DNA of 43,516 bases from Desulfobacteraceae bacterium (GTDB lineage: Bacteria; Desulfobacterota; Desulfobacteria; Desulfobacterales; SKZT01): NCBI GenBank assembly GCA_007127235.1, contig SKZT01000112.1:1-43516 (forward strand), read 5' to 3'. The position numbers and the translations under genes are program-made. Every line of letters begins with the position of its first letter. Positions within the stretch are counted from its first letter, which is position 1. The notes beneath the pieces are model-generated. The model was not told the DNA's origin, searched no databases, and saw nothing but the letters and a program-made list of their open reading frames with translations. Positions 3,690 to 22,904 of the stretch are shown one piece after another.

Positions 3690-5609
3690 ATGATTTTGGC
3701 AGACCGAATAAATTTGGCGGATAATGTCCAAGCGATATTTTGGGATATGGATGGTGTTTTGCTGGATACCCTTGGGCTTGATCTCATTGTGTGCAATGAT
3801 CTTGTGAAACGATATTTCGGTGACCGGGTTCATTTGCCCAGGAATTATATCAGATCCATCTTTGGCTATCACCCGCCGGAATTCTGGAAGCGAATTCTGG
3901 AGTTTGTGGAGCAAAATTATGGAATATCCCATGCTCCTGAGCAACTGGATGCTATTTTACCTAAATACAACGATATCCGAAACAACACCACTTTTGAAAC
4001 CAATCCGGGTATTCTTGAAATTTTAATTGATGCAAGGGTTCGAGGCCTCAAGTGTGTCGTGGTTTCCAACAATCCCACTGAGGATGTCAGAAAAATCATC
4101 ACTCAAGCAAGCATGGCGGATTATTTTGATCATATTGTGGGAAATGATATTAAAACACTTGAAAAAAAGCCCGCACCCGACACTTATCTTTTGGCGGCCG
4201 AGCTGCTTGGTGTTGGCCCCCAACACTGTGTTGTGGTGGAAGACTCTTTATTGGGTGCGGAGGCGGGAGATGCGGCTGGATGTTATACCATCGGCGTTTG
4301 CACCGGCAGTGCAGATTTTGATTCCCTTGAGTCATGTCCTTTTATTGATTGTGTTTACATTTCCTTTGAACCCAACCGTATTGAGCTAAATCGAGGTCCG
4401 GTGACCACCAAACAGGTGTTTACTCCCAACGAGTTTGTAAGCCATATGATCGAACACATTGCCTGGCGTCTCGGGTGTGAAGTCGATCTTTTTTGGAACA
4501 ATAACGACTGGCGTTTATTGGGCGAATCCATGGGAAAAGTGTTGAAGCGATTTGAAACTGATCAAATGCAGACAGCAGCCATGGGCATGATTGATGACGG
4601 CAGTGCTGAGGTGCTCCTTGATCTTTCTGCTTCAGCAGGACTTCAACTGGAATCGGTAGCTTCCATTGATCTTGACTGGTTTTTGTCATTGCGATGTGAA
4701 CAACTGGCAAACGGTGCTCCATTGGAAAAACTTCTTCGGGGTTTATCCAAAGGTCTCGACGGGTTTATGAGGATACGGGTTTGCAATCTTGAGGATCCAC
4801 ATCATACGTGGGAGGGAATTTTTCGGGCTGTTGGGATTGCAATGAGCAAAATTTTTCCCGAAAAGCACGATTACCATTACTCAGAAACTGCACATCCTCC
4901 TGAAAAAAGCGTTATGCCTGGAGATATCAGTATCCTTTCACGATCTGTAGATGGGGCAAAAGTCATCCGCAAAACAGCCGAAAGTCATGTGATGGTCGGT
5001 GTGGACTTCAGCCAAAGAACACCTTTCAAATGCCGTTTCGATGTTTCAGGCTCTGTGCGGGTGGAAAAATTTTGTGACCTGCTTCGGTTATTTTCCCAGG
5101 CTGCCGGTTTTTCGATGGATTTGGATTTCAATGCCACAGCTTTATCTTCGAGCCATGTGGCCGTTGAAGACACCGCCCTTGTGCTGGGGCGGGCCCTTAA
5201 AGAAATTTTTGTGCTTAGAATGATGACATACGGTGTTAACGGGGCAGGATGCAGTATTGATACGGTGGAAGATTTTTTAACACAAACTGTGCGAACAGGT
5301 ATCAGTATCGAAGGCCGAAAATTCTGGAAAATAATCCCCTTTGACGGTGATTTCGTATCCATGCAAAAAAGATTCATTATAGGGCAGAATGTGTTGGGAG
5401 AGCTTTTTTCAGAGGATCTGGATGACTTTCTCGATGGGTTGGCCGGAGGGCTGGGATGCAGCATTGTTGTGCATGTAAAAGATATAATAGACCCGGACAG
5501 CGGTTGGAAAATGATCTTTGAAAACTTGGGCAAAGCTGTCAATAAGGCATTCGCAGTCAATCCCCGCCGAAAAGGTGTTACACCCGGAGTCAAAGCAACC
5601 CTGGCTTAA
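3690..5609 (+). CDS. HAD-IA hydrolase fused to two tandem imidazoleglycerol-phosphate dehydratase (HisB)-like domains
   Basis: N-term HAD motifs FWDMDGVLLDT, VVVSNNPT, KPAPDTY, VVVEDSLLGAEAG. Then IGPD-like segments: HMIEHIAWRLGCEVDL...DPHHTWEGIFRAVG and SSHVAVEDTALVLGRALKEI...DPDSGWKMIFENLG. Followed by hisC- and hisD-like genes. Confidence 0.8.
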   Translation: MILADRINLADNVQAIFWDMDGVLLDTLGLDLIVCNDLVKRYFGDRVHLPRNYIRSIFGYHPPEFWKRILEFVEQNYGISHAPEQLDAILPKYNDIRNNTTFETNPGILEILIDARVRGLKCVVVSNNPTEDVRKIITQASMADYFDHIVGNDIKTLEKKPAPDTYLLAAELLGVGPQHCVVVEDSLLGAEAGDAAGCYTIGVCTGSADFDSLESCPFIDCVYISFEPNRIELNRGPVTTKQVFTPNEFVSHMIEHIAWRLGCEVDLFWNNNDWRLLGESMGKVLKRFETDQMQTAAMGMIDDGSAEVLLDLSASAGLQLESVASIDLDWFLSLRCEQLANGAPLEKLLRGLSKGLDGFMRIRVCNLEDPHHTWEGIFRAVGIAMSKIFPEKHDYHYSETAHPPEKSVMPGDISILSRSVDGAKVIRKTAESHVMVGVDFSQRTPFKCRFDVSGSVRVEKFCDLLRLFSQAAGFSMDLDFNATALSSSHVAVEDTALVLGRALKEIFVLRMMTYGVNGAGCSIDTVEDFLTQTVRTGISIEGRKFWKIIPFDGDFVSMQKRFIIGQNVLGELFSEDLDDFLDGLAGGLGCSIVVHVKDIIDPDSGWKMIFENLGKAVNKAFAVNPRRKGVTPGVKATLA

Positions 5610-5631
5610 AAAAATAGGAATTTATGCATTT

Positions 5632-6699
5632 ATGATACAGGTAAAATCGCACATCGCTTCCATGGGACCTTACAGTCCACCGTGGACAGGATTAAATCGA
5701 AGTCAATATTTGCGGTTGGACTTAAATGAAAACACGCTTGACCCTCCCGAGCATGTCAAAGCAGCCCTTAAAAATTATATTGACCAAAACCGTATTCAAA
5801 TGTACCCGGAATATGAAAACTTCCTGTCAAAATTGAGTGCTTATGCTCAGGTGGATTCCAGCCAGCTCATTTTGACCAACGGTTCTGACCAGGCCATTGA
5901 ATTGCTCCTCCATGCGTTTTTGGAAAGTGGGCACATCATGGTGATTGCCCGTCCGGAGTTTCCCATTTTCACACAAATCGCCTCAGCAATAAATGTAAGC
6001 GTCCGGGGTGTTTCTTTTGAAAAAAGCATGCGTTTTCCGTTTGAGGCTTTTATGGACGCCATCACGCCGGATGTTGGTCTCATTGTTCTGATAAACCCCA
6101 ACAATCCTACAGGCACACCACTTGAGCTGAATCAGATAGAAGAAATCCTCAAAAGATACCGGAACATTCCCGTTATTGTAGATGAAGCCTATTACGAATA
6201 TACTCAGATTACCTCCTGTGGTTTGCTTGAAAATTATCCCAATCTTATTATCACCAGAACATTTTCCAAAGCTTTTGCCATGGCGGGCTTAAGATTGGGT
6301 TATGTTATTGCAAACCCGGAAATTATCTCACAGCTTTATAAAATTCGAGGGCCTTTTGATGTAAACTCATGCTCCCTGATTGCCGCGCAGGCACAACTGG
6401 ATTGCCCTGAGAGCTGGAAAGCATATGTGGAAGAAACGATGACCCGTTCAAAACCGTTTCTGGAAAATTTTTTTAAAGAGCGCAGGATACGTTATTTTCC
6501 CGGTGCGGCTCATTTTATGTTAGTCCTTCCACAAAACCGGGATCAGGCCGTGAGCTATCTCAAAGAGCATGGTATCCTGGTCAGGCCCATGTTTGCGCCT
6601 TTGATTGAAAAAACCTTCAGGATGTGTGTCGGCAACCTGGAACAAACCCAAGAGTTTGCCGCCGTATTTGAAAAATATTTACAGGAGTTTGATTCATGA
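5632..6699 (+). CDS. hisC: Histidinol-phosphate aminotransferase-like PLP enzyme
   Basis: LDLNENTLDPPEHV, NPNNPTGTPL, VDEAYYEY, TRTFSKAFAMAGLRLGY (PLP Lys motif). The ORF track starts at 5518; the ATG at 5632 lies just after the preceding stop. Confidence 0.85.
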   Translation: MIQVKSHIASMGPYSPPWTGLNRSQYLRLDLNENTLDPPEHVKAALKNYIDQNRIQMYPEYENFLSKLSAYAQVDSSQLILTNGSDQAIELLLHAFLESGHIMVIARPEFPIFTQIASAINVSVRGVSFEKSMRFPFEAFMDAITPDVGLIVLINPNNPTGTPLELNQIEEILKRYRNIPVIVDEAYYEYTQITSCGLLENYPNLIITRTFSKAFAMAGLRLGYVIANPEIISQLYKIRGPFDVNSCSLIAAQAQLDCPESWKAYVEETMTRSKPFLENFFKERRIRYFPGAAHFMLVLPQNRDQAVSYLKEHGILVRPMFAPLIEKTFRMCVGNLEQTQEFAAVFEKYLQEFDS

Positions 6700-8006
6700 A
6701 AATAAACGTTTTTGAGCTTGAAAAAATGACCGGCGAGCAAATTGAAAAAGTGCTGAGACGCTCTGAAATTGACATTGAACAGTATCAGGAAGCAATCAGG
6801 CCTGTAATCAATGATGTCCAACATAAAGGAGATGCCGCGATTCTGGAATATTGTGAAAAATTTGACAATGTCAAATTGTCTTTTTCGGAGCTGAAAGTTT
6901 CCGAGGCCGAATTTGCATATGCCGAGAAAAATCTGGAGCCGGAAATCAAGGAGGTTATTCGAATCTCTTATGAAAACATCAAAAAATTCCACGAAGCGCA
7001 AATGCCGAATGATATGTGGTTTACCCATATCGATGACGGCATACTAGCCGGTGAAAAAATCACCCCCATTACCTCGGTGGGCATCTATGTGCCCAGGGGC
7101 AAGGGGTCTTTTCCATCGGTGATGCTGATGCTTTGCATCCCTGCAGTAATTGCAAAGGTGCCGCAAGTGATTGTCTGTACTCCTCCTACCCCTGATGGCG
7201 GCGTAGATGATGCTTCTTTGTACACGGCAAAACTCTGCGGCATTCATGATGTTTATAAAGTAGGCGGTTCCCAGGCCATCGCAGCCATGGCCTTTGGTAC
7301 CGAGACCATACCCAAAGTCAACAAAGTGATAGGCCCTGGCAATATTTATGTTTCAGCAGCAAAGCGTTTGTTGTACGGAAAAATCGACGTGGGAACACCT
7401 GCCGGGCCCAGTGAGTCCATCATACTTTGCGATGATTCCACCGATCCGAAAATCGCAGCCCTGGATCTGCTCATCGAAGCTGAACATGGTCCTGATTCCA
7501 CGGCTCTTCTGGTAACCCATTCAAAACAGTTTGCTGAAAAGGTCAAAGAGCTGCTTCCCTCACTCATCGATGATCTTCCTGAAGAACGTCAGAACTTTTG
7601 CAAAGCTGTATTCTCAAATTACGGCGGCATCATGATCACACCCCACCTGGATGCCTCTATTGATTTTGTAAACGAATTTGCACCGGAGCATATGGAAGTA
7701 CTGGTTAAAAATCCTATGGCAGCCCTTCAAAAAATCAAGAATGCAGGAGAAATACTTATAGGCCCCTGTACTCCCATTACACTGGGAAATTTTTCCCTGG
7801 GTGTAAACGCCATTCTTCCTACAGGAGGATTCGCCAAGACGTTTTCCTGCGTCACCGTATTTGATTTTTTAAAACGAAGTTCAATCGGATTTGTTACCGA
7901 GGAAGGTTACGAAAAGCTAAAGGATGTCGCTCGAAAATTTGCCGAATACGAGGGCTTTTCGGCACATGCCAATGCCATTTTAAAGCGCGATATCAAAGGA
8001 GAGTAG
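6696..8006 (+). CDS. hisD: Histidinol dehydrogenase family protein (divergent)
   Basis: YVPRGKGSFPSVMLML, GGSQAIAAMAFGTETIPKVNKVIGPGN, GPSE, EAEHGPDS, EFAPEHMEV, NAILPTGG. ATGA overlap with the upstream aminotransferase. Confidence 0.88.
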   Translation: MKINVFELEKMTGEQIEKVLRRSEIDIEQYQEAIRPVINDVQHKGDAAILEYCEKFDNVKLSFSELKVSEAEFAYAEKNLEPEIKEVIRISYENIKKFHEAQMPNDMWFTHIDDGILAGEKITPITSVGIYVPRGKGSFPSVMLMLCIPAVIAKVPQVIVCTPPTPDGGVDDASLYTAKLCGIHDVYKVGGSQAIAAMAFGTETIPKVNKVIGPGNIYVSAAKRLLYGKIDVGTPAGPSESIILCDDSTDPKIAALDLLIEAEHGPDSTALLVTHSKQFAEKVKELLPSLIDDLPEERQNFCKAVFSNYGGIMITPHLDASIDFVNEFAPEHMEVLVKNPMAALQKIKNAGEILIGPCTPITLGNFSLGVNAILPTGGFAKTFSCVTVFDFLKRSSIGFVTEEGYEKLKDVARKFAEYEGFSAHANAILKRDIKGE

Positions 8007-8010
8007 ATCA

Positions 8011-9417
8011 TTGTCGGAAACAATTGTTAAACCTGAACGTCCGGGAGGCTTTCTGGATTTTCTTCCGGCGGATTACCTGGCCAGGGAAAGCATGCTGAAA
8101 AAAATTCAAGGGGTTTTTCGCTCATTTGGTTTCGACCCCATAGAAACGCCACGAATTGAGTTTCTGAAAACCCTGGCCGGAGAAACAAGCAATACCGGAA
8201 AAAATATTTTTCATATCAAAAGTGGGGCTGACGACGAACCCTTGGCTATGCCTTTTGACCACACAGTGCCTTTCGCAAGGCTTCTGGCTGCAAATCCTTA
8301 TGAAGCCAAAAGACGAACAGGCATTCGGCTTCCATGGAGACGAATGGTGGTGGGACCCGTATTCCGTTCCGATAATCCCCAAAGCGGCCGATATCGCCAA
8401 TTTTACCAGTTTGATGCCGATATCGCCGGCACATCGGCCATGATGGCCGATGCCGAGATGGTCGCCCTCATGTATCTGACCATGAAAGCCTTGAGTGTTG
8501 AACATTTTAAAATCAGGATCAACAACCGCAAAGTTCTAAACGGTCTTGCCACCCTAACGGGTATACATGGCAGAGATAAAATCCCCGCAAATGATATCAC
8601 AAGGGAAATGATGAGAATTTTGGACAAGCTGGATAAAATCGGGATGGATCGCGTGTTAAAAGAACTTCAGGATCCCCCTGAAGATGATTATTCGCCGAGT
8701 CCCTGCCTTTCAGCGGAAAGTGTCGAAAACATCAGATCTTTTTTATCACTCAAGGGAGATAACTCTCAAAAAATTTCTCAATGTCGCGAAATTTTTCAGG
8801 GAATCGATATTGCCCATGAGGGACTTGACGAATTGAGTTCGATTTTAAATTATCTCCGAAGCATGAAAATCCCTGAAAGTTATGTGGATATTGACTTTTC
8901 AATCGCGCGTGGACTGGATTACTATACAGGACCTGTTTTTGAAACCGTGCTTTTGGATGCTCCTGAATTTGGAAGTATTTTTTCAGGAGGCCGCTATAAT
9001 GATCTTGTCAGGCGTTTCACAGGAAAAAGCCTACCGGCCACAGGGACTTCCATAGGGGTTGACCGCCTTTTTGCCGCTCTTTCTCACCTTGGCCTTTTAG
9101 ATAAAAGCAGGCAAACCGTCACTGAGGTGATGGTCCTTCGAATTGAAAAAGACAATGATGAACAGTACCTTGAAATCGCCTCCCGTGTTCGTTGCATGGG
9201 AATCAATACGGAAATCTGCATGGTGGAAGACACAAGTTTCAAAGGGCAGTTCAATTTTGCCATCAGTCGGGGTGCTAAATTTGTGATCATCTGCGGTGTT
9301 TCAGAATTGGAAAAAGGGACACTACAAATCAAAAACCTCGAAACCCGCAAACAGGAAGAAGTTTCAAAGGCTGATCTGGGGGCCTACTTCGAAAAAAACA
9401 GATGTTCAGAAAAATAG
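8011..9417 (+). CDS. hisS: Histidyl-tRNA synthetase family protein (HisRS; class II core plus C-terminal anticodon-binding-like domain)
   Basis: FRSDNPQSGRYRQFYQFDADI (motif 2), IARGLDYYTGPVFE (HisRS His-A motif), GGRYNDLVRRF, GTSIGVDRLFAAL (motif 3), C-terminal EVMVLRIEKDND...GAKFVIICG. TTG start 4 nt after the hisD stop. Confidence 0.85.
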   Translation: MSETIVKPERPGGFLDFLPADYLARESMLKKIQGVFRSFGFDPIETPRIEFLKTLAGETSNTGKNIFHIKSGADDEPLAMPFDHTVPFARLLAANPYEAKRRTGIRLPWRRMVVGPVFRSDNPQSGRYRQFYQFDADIAGTSAMMADAEMVALMYLTMKALSVEHFKIRINNRKVLNGLATLTGIHGRDKIPANDITREMMRILDKLDKIGMDRVLKELQDPPEDDYSPSPCLSAESVENIRSFLSLKGDNSQKISQCREIFQGIDIAHEGLDELSSILNYLRSMKIPESYVDIDFSIARGLDYYTGPVFETVLLDAPEFGSIFSGGRYNDLVRRFTGKSLPATGTSIGVDRLFAALSHLGLLDKSRQTVTEVMVLRIEKDNDEQYLEIASRVRCMGINTEICMVEDTSFKGQFNFAISRGAKFVIICGVSELEKGTLQIKNLETRKQEEVSKADLGAYFEKNRCSEK

Positions 9418-22529: not shown

Positions 22530-22904
22530 ATGGTGGATCTAAATTTTGATAAAATGGATGGCCTTATTCCTGCCATCGTCCAGGACCACAAATCCGGCGA
22601 TGTCTTGATGCTGGCGTTTATGACCAAAGAGGCTTTTCTTCATACGCTATCCACTAAAAAAGCGACTTTTTACAGCCGTTCCCGCAAAGGGTTATGGATT
22701 AAAGGAGAAACCTCAGGTCATTTTCAAATAGTCAAGGAAATATTTACCGATTGTGACAACGATACAGTTTTGCTGAAAGTTGAACAAATCGGCGGCGCTG
22801 CCTGCCATACGGGATATGCCGGTTGTTTTTTCAAAAAAATTGAGGATAACGAAATCAGCATTGTGGGTGAGCCTGTATTTGATCCGAAAAAAGTTTACAA
22901 ATAA
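22530..22904 (+). CDS. hisI: Phosphoribosyl-AMP cyclohydrolase
   Basis: [57 protein letters not shown]. Confidence 0.96.

Follow-up and report, generated by a model that had tools for sequence, protein, structure and literature searches.

A HAD-fused tandem of IGPD domains predicted to share the chain roles of one composite active site

In an ordinary IGP dehydratase (IGPD, HisB), each subunit serves several active sites, acting as chain A for one of them and as chain A' (and C) for others. A gene of a Desulfobacteraceae bacterium, located in the 43,516-nucleotide stretch of contig SKZT01000112.1 analysed here (the window), raises the question of what such an enzyme becomes when two copies of its domain are joined in one chain and each carries only part of the metal-binding motifs. 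The ORF list and translation place this open reading frame at 3690-5609 (+), encoding a 639-aa protein in which a HAD-IA phosphatase is followed by two IGPD (HisB-type) domains. The HAD domain (aa 1-230) occupies 3690-4379 (+), IGPD copy 1 occupies 4380-4895 (+), and copy 2 occupies 4941-5606 (+). An earlier note on this DNA had recognised the fusion of a HAD phosphatase to two IGPD-like domains; its two copies stand, with their limits moved from ~4410-4875 and ~4960-5560.

A Pfam scan of the protein gives a HAD_2 match at aa 16-203 (7e-25) and matches PF00475 (IGPD) to two stretches, which the search of the whole genome also returns as separate hits at 4428-4844 and 5070-5537. Copy 2 scores 32.1 bits and copy 1 scores 26.6 bits (29 with its in-frame neighbour) against a curated cut-off of 27. 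Sequence-only searches of the PDB yield weak matches (best 7e-4), and family assignment therefore relied on profile and fold comparison. In profile-profile comparison against canonical IGPDs, copy 1 reaches 98.7% and copy 2 reaches 99.6%. From a 50-member alignment, AlphaFold models the tandem with a pLDDT of 92.4 and a pTM of 0.92, while copy 1 modelled alone reaches a pLDDT of 94.2; for both models the best 29 PDB fold matches found by Foldseek are all IGPDs. The HMM, profile-profile and predicted-fold results thus agree on IGPD similarity in both repeats, supporting a predicted assignment of both copies to the IGPD fold family. More than 50 genomes, spread across several bacterial phyla, share the tandem design. 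An assembly or pseudogene artefact can be ruled out because dozens of unrelated contigs carry the same open architecture.

The HHxxE motif is present in both half-domains of every sequence in a survey of 535 IGPDs (PMC7284861); this, rather than the HHxxxE of the earlier note, is the correct form. Neither copy of the tandem has an intact pair. Copy 1 has only the second motif, in DPHHTWE (H371, H372, E375), and copy 2 only a partial first, in SSHVAVED (H489, E493, with Val490 in place of the second His), so the tandem is an IGPD variant rather than a canonical member of the family. The complementary loss of motifs described in the earlier note is therefore borne out, but it is not limited to the motifs: other metal ligands and substrate-binding residues are also partitioned.

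The extent of this partition was assessed by tallying 17 positions (A. thaliana numbering) in 18 canonical IGPDs, three Thermoplasmatota single-copy enzymes, and 50 tandems. In the Acanthamoeba IGPD, the active site draws on H40, H162, H163, E166, K170, H48, and D101 of chain A, H66, H67, E70, and H138 of chain A', and R92, R114, S191, and K193 of chain C (PMC6029752), and an identical ligand set is reported for the plant enzyme (PMC10978614; PMC4509728). In all 50 tandems the chain-A list is found in copy 1: H47, D108, H169, H170, and E173 are retained, and Arg stands in place of H55 and K177. The A'/C list is found in copy 2, again in 50/50, as E21, H73, E77, R121, and K201; the residue at the H145 position is Asp. 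In the window protein, copy 1 retains H252, H256, R260, D302, H371, H372, E375, and R379, and lacks strand 1, the first HHxxE, and the H145, R121, and C-loop Lys positions. Copy 2 retains E431, H489, E493, D494, R543, D579, and K635, and lacks H47, D108, and the second HHxxE. The chain-A Mn ligand H47 corresponds to H252 (4443-4445, +; 50/50), and the chain-A Mn ligands H169, H170, and E173 correspond to the H371-H372-xx-E375 motif (4800-4814, +; 50/50). The H73, H74, and E77 positions of chain A' correspond to H489-V490-xx-E493 (5154-5168, +; 50/50), in which V490 is invariant. D579 (5424-5426, +) stands at the H145 position, which is Asp in 50/50 tandems, Glu in 16 and His in two of the canonical enzymes, and Glu in most Desulfobacterota canonical IGPDs. 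Together the two copies fill seven of the eight di-Mn ligand positions, with Asp at the H145 position and Val at His74. The site is not fully canonical, since His74 is Val in every member (50/50) and Arg99 is Gly in 47/50; the S199 position in copy 2 is Pro or Ala.

Chance resemblance of a diverged repeat can be discounted given the 50/50 conservation: the retained columns are invariant in the 51-member family alignment (51/51), while the positions on one copy's list are, in the other copy, gapped, variable, or fixed as Val490 and D579. One residue merits comment. The caption of Bisson et al. prints the catalytic Glu21 as belonging to chain A (PMC4509728); here, however, the Glu21 position is retained in copy 2, and the entire first strand is missing from copy 1. 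As the site is pseudo-two-fold symmetric and D101 (D108) lies on chain A in Acanthamoeba (PMC6029752), E21 is expected to belong to chain A', which would fit its retention in copy 2.

We propose that duplication and fusion of a divergent IGPD gene gave rise to two copies that came to divide the roles of the chains between them. Copy 1 would act as chain A only, contributing the Mn ligands H252, H371, H372, and E375, with R260 and R379 on the phosphate side and D302 for the catalytic water. Copy 2 would act as chains A' and C only, contributing H489, E493, and D579, with E431 as the acid-base residue, R543 on the phosphate side, and K635 in the C-loop. Because copy 1 holds only the A role and copy 2 only the A'/C role, each pair of copies would form two sites, a live di-metal site and a dead one. 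The particle probably comprises 24 domains from 12 chains, and the copies may pair within or between chains. The covalent pseudo-dimer with a composite site that the earlier note had suggested is supported as a coherent reading of the sequences, fitting the published chain assignment position by position (PMC6029752, PMC10978614) in a genome with no other IGPD.

A complete active site is found in neither copy, which also suits a non-catalytic pseudoenzyme serving as scaffold or regulator for the HAD phosphatase, with IGP dehydrated by another, unknown enzyme. A scaffold, however, is not expected to preserve the A residues in one copy and the A'/C residues in the other, both sets exact and invariant in 51/51, and tandem members that lack the HAD domain keep the same residues; we consider such a role very improbable. 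The idea of half-of-sites asymmetry, along with the variability of the lost positions, would suit another variant, in which the composite site is accompanied by regulation through an effector or product bound at the dead interface. No alternative residue set was seen to be conserved at that interface, and this too seems highly unlikely.

The composite-site reading is strengthened by the surroundings of the gene. The tandem gene overlaps a hisC-like aminotransferase ORF (5518-6699, +), the true start of which is probably downstream of the overlap. This is followed by hisD (6696-8006, +), identified from the ORF list and family search as the sole HisD of the genome, and by a histidyl-tRNA-synthetase-like gene (8011-9417, +), named by inspection, which is also next in order in L003. 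A hisI-like gene (51% to an E. coli HisI segment) lies away from this cluster, at 22530-22904 (+) of the window. The tandem likewise adjoins hisC and hisD in Nocardia, Streptomyces, and others, and replaces hisB in whole his operons at L015, L018, L019, and L041. It also occurs in HisC-HAD-tandem fusions (L012, L048) and fused behind HisC in Thiomargarita. This genome context points to a role in histidine biosynthesis.

Within the order, 119 of 122 good genomes yield an IGPD match, almost always as strong as a canonical one (E about 1e-60). The PF00475 search of the host's own genome (3.27 Mb, 95.3% complete) found no IGPD beyond the two matches of the tandem, which seems to be the host's only IGPD; the same holds for a 99%-complete genome of the same genus (G090). 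We identified 53 further carrier loci, 43 with the HAD fusion and 10 without. The separate canonical hisB that the earlier note had proposed to look for in the genome was not found by PF00475 search in any of the 43 HAD-fused carriers either; six carriers have it, each with an unfused tandem. Calling a family absent presupposes a complete assembly, and many carriers are metagenome-assembled genomes (MAGs), but incompleteness is unlikely to hide a canonical hisB across 43 carriers. HisG is found in 42 of 52 carriers and not in the other 10, many carriers being incomplete MAGs; HisA/HisF are found in all five carriers checked. The Nocardia and Streptomyces carriers without canonical hisB retain hisG, hisA/hisF, and one hisD. 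Given the lack of canonical hisB in HAD-fused carriers, the his-operon context, the presence of HisG and HisA/HisF, and the single HisD in the cluster here, it is very probable that histidine biosynthesis relies on the tandem as its functional IGPD. Two loci depart from the usual layout: at L035:1479-4454 a HisC - canonical HisB frame (576-aa ORF) is directly followed by an unfused tandem, and in L053, a Magnetococcales MAG, the tandem frame is apparently split into two segments by an assembly error or frameshift.

The earlier note had also allowed for a changed function, and a dehydratase of IGPD type acting on a different imidazole or glycerol-phosphate substrate is worth weighing given the His74 to Val and Arg99 to Gly substitutions. 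An unfused subgroup (L022, L024, L042, L044, L052) coexists with canonical hisB. In L024, L042, L044, and L052, where the cluster is readable, and probably in L022, the gene order is hisD - SDR - ABC ATPase - Tat-signal binding protein - two permeases - unfused tandem, and this subgroup may have a different role. The HAD-fused members, in contrast, have no other IGPD and lie beside hisC/hisD or in whole his operons, and the single HisD of the window's own genome (G000) falls in the tandem's cluster. Moreover, single-copy relatives with identical substitutions occur in his gene clusters (L056, Monoglobus). The changed function is thus unlikely for the HAD-fused window protein, though it may apply to the unfused subgroup. 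Overall, we hold with considerable confidence that the HAD-fused tandem is the host's IGP dehydratase, its copies predicted to split the chain roles of a composite site.

The HAD domain is likely to serve the same pathway. Every HAD-fused relative in the 51-member alignment has D19, D21, S126, and E184-D185, and nearly all have K160; these are the catalytic residues of the domain. Its nearest NCBIfam and PDB matches are beta-phosphoglucomutase and phosphoglycolate phosphatase, which places it in type HAD-IA rather than with the N-terminal histidinol-phosphate phosphatase of E. coli HisB (HisNB), as the earlier note had judged. From its his-gene context, the domain is probably a histidinol-phosphate phosphatase. 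Family searches found no PHP-type histidinol-phosphate phosphatase and no HisN over cut-off in the window's own genome or in G090. The assignment is weaker in Nocardia and Streptomyces, since one tandem carrier of each (G251 and G254, respectively) has HisN.

Single-copy divergent IGPDs were found in Thermoplasmatota (L056, L109, L110), with L056 in a his operon, and in Monoglobus, where WP_320690546.1, annotated 'hypothetical protein', lies between hisD and a HAD gene (hisD - IGPD - HAD). The Monoglobus gene is at L115:7923-8543; its record (NZ_OY725736.1) is labelled a plasmid, yet has sporulation sigma factor and pta/acetate kinase genes. On a single chain these relatives combine almost the complete residue set, with both metal motifs in L056 and the Monoglobus protein, and share with the tandems Arg55, Arg177, the missing His74, and Gly99 (Monoglobus by alignment inspection). 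The phylogeny of both copies suggested in the earlier note gives a partial answer: copy 1, copy 2, and the single-copy relatives form a clade apart from canonical IGPDs with support of 100/100, while the pairing of the two copies as mutual closest kin has an AU p of 0.097, with long branches. The presence of the HAD domain on the tandem tree needs three changes. The single-copy relatives likely represent the pre-duplication state, and in the simplest history His74 and Arg99 were lost in a single-copy enzyme, followed by duplication and fusion, and then by complementary loss of roles.

HisG in the host's genome is also encoded by two adjacent divergent paralogues, of 226 and 253 aa, next to a HisZ-like gene (L114:3573-5011, -; G000:C226). 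One lacks the PRPP loop TGxTL and keeps LPKG; the other, without the N-terminal PKG motif, keeps ENTETGNTL and has PDGH. Loci L116, L117, and L118 also show this arrangement, the same pattern being found in three genomes, and the paralogues may form a second complementary pair. We tentatively raise the possibility that several histidine enzymes of this lineage have been rebuilt as complementary pseudo-heterodimers, namely the tandem IGPD, with 12 live and 12 dead interfaces per particle and a ligand-depleted metal site, and the HisG pair. If so, active sites at interfaces would be prone to a ratchet of duplication and complementary loss.

The open-access literature searched holds no description of a tandem, fused, or pseudoenzyme IGPD of this design, and within that literature it is apparently undescribed. 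The tandem is a clear natural example of how duplication can lead to complementary loss within one active site, and accounts for genomes that seemingly lack hisB. With its single-copy relatives it forms a system for asking whether such complexity is adaptive or neutral. A variant whose metal and phosphate site is altered is also of practical interest, IGPD being a target for herbicides and antimicrobials.

Compared with canonical IGPD (HisB/HISN5, PF00475), represented by A. thaliana IGPD2, M. truncatula HISN5, and the Acanthamoeba enzyme, the tandem is alike in predicted fold, in most Mn-ligand positions, in the acid-base Glu, Arg121, and C-loop Lys positions, and in his-gene context. Canonical chains, however, are identical and each performs all roles, whereas the tandem divides these roles between its two fused copies, with Val for His74 and Gly for Arg99. 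E. coli HisB shares the arrangement of an N-terminal HAD phosphatase and C-terminal IGPD, and probably the same pathway steps (6 and 8), but has one complete IGPD copy and a different HAD, of the DDDD family (PMC1963479), in contrast to the type IA HAD and two half-active copies of the tandem gene; an independent origin of the tandem fusion is thereby supported. Closest are the single-copy Thermoplasmatota and Monoglobus enzymes, which belong to the same clade and share its R55, R177, lost His74, G99, and his cluster, but hold the roles in one unfused copy where the tandem has two fused copies.
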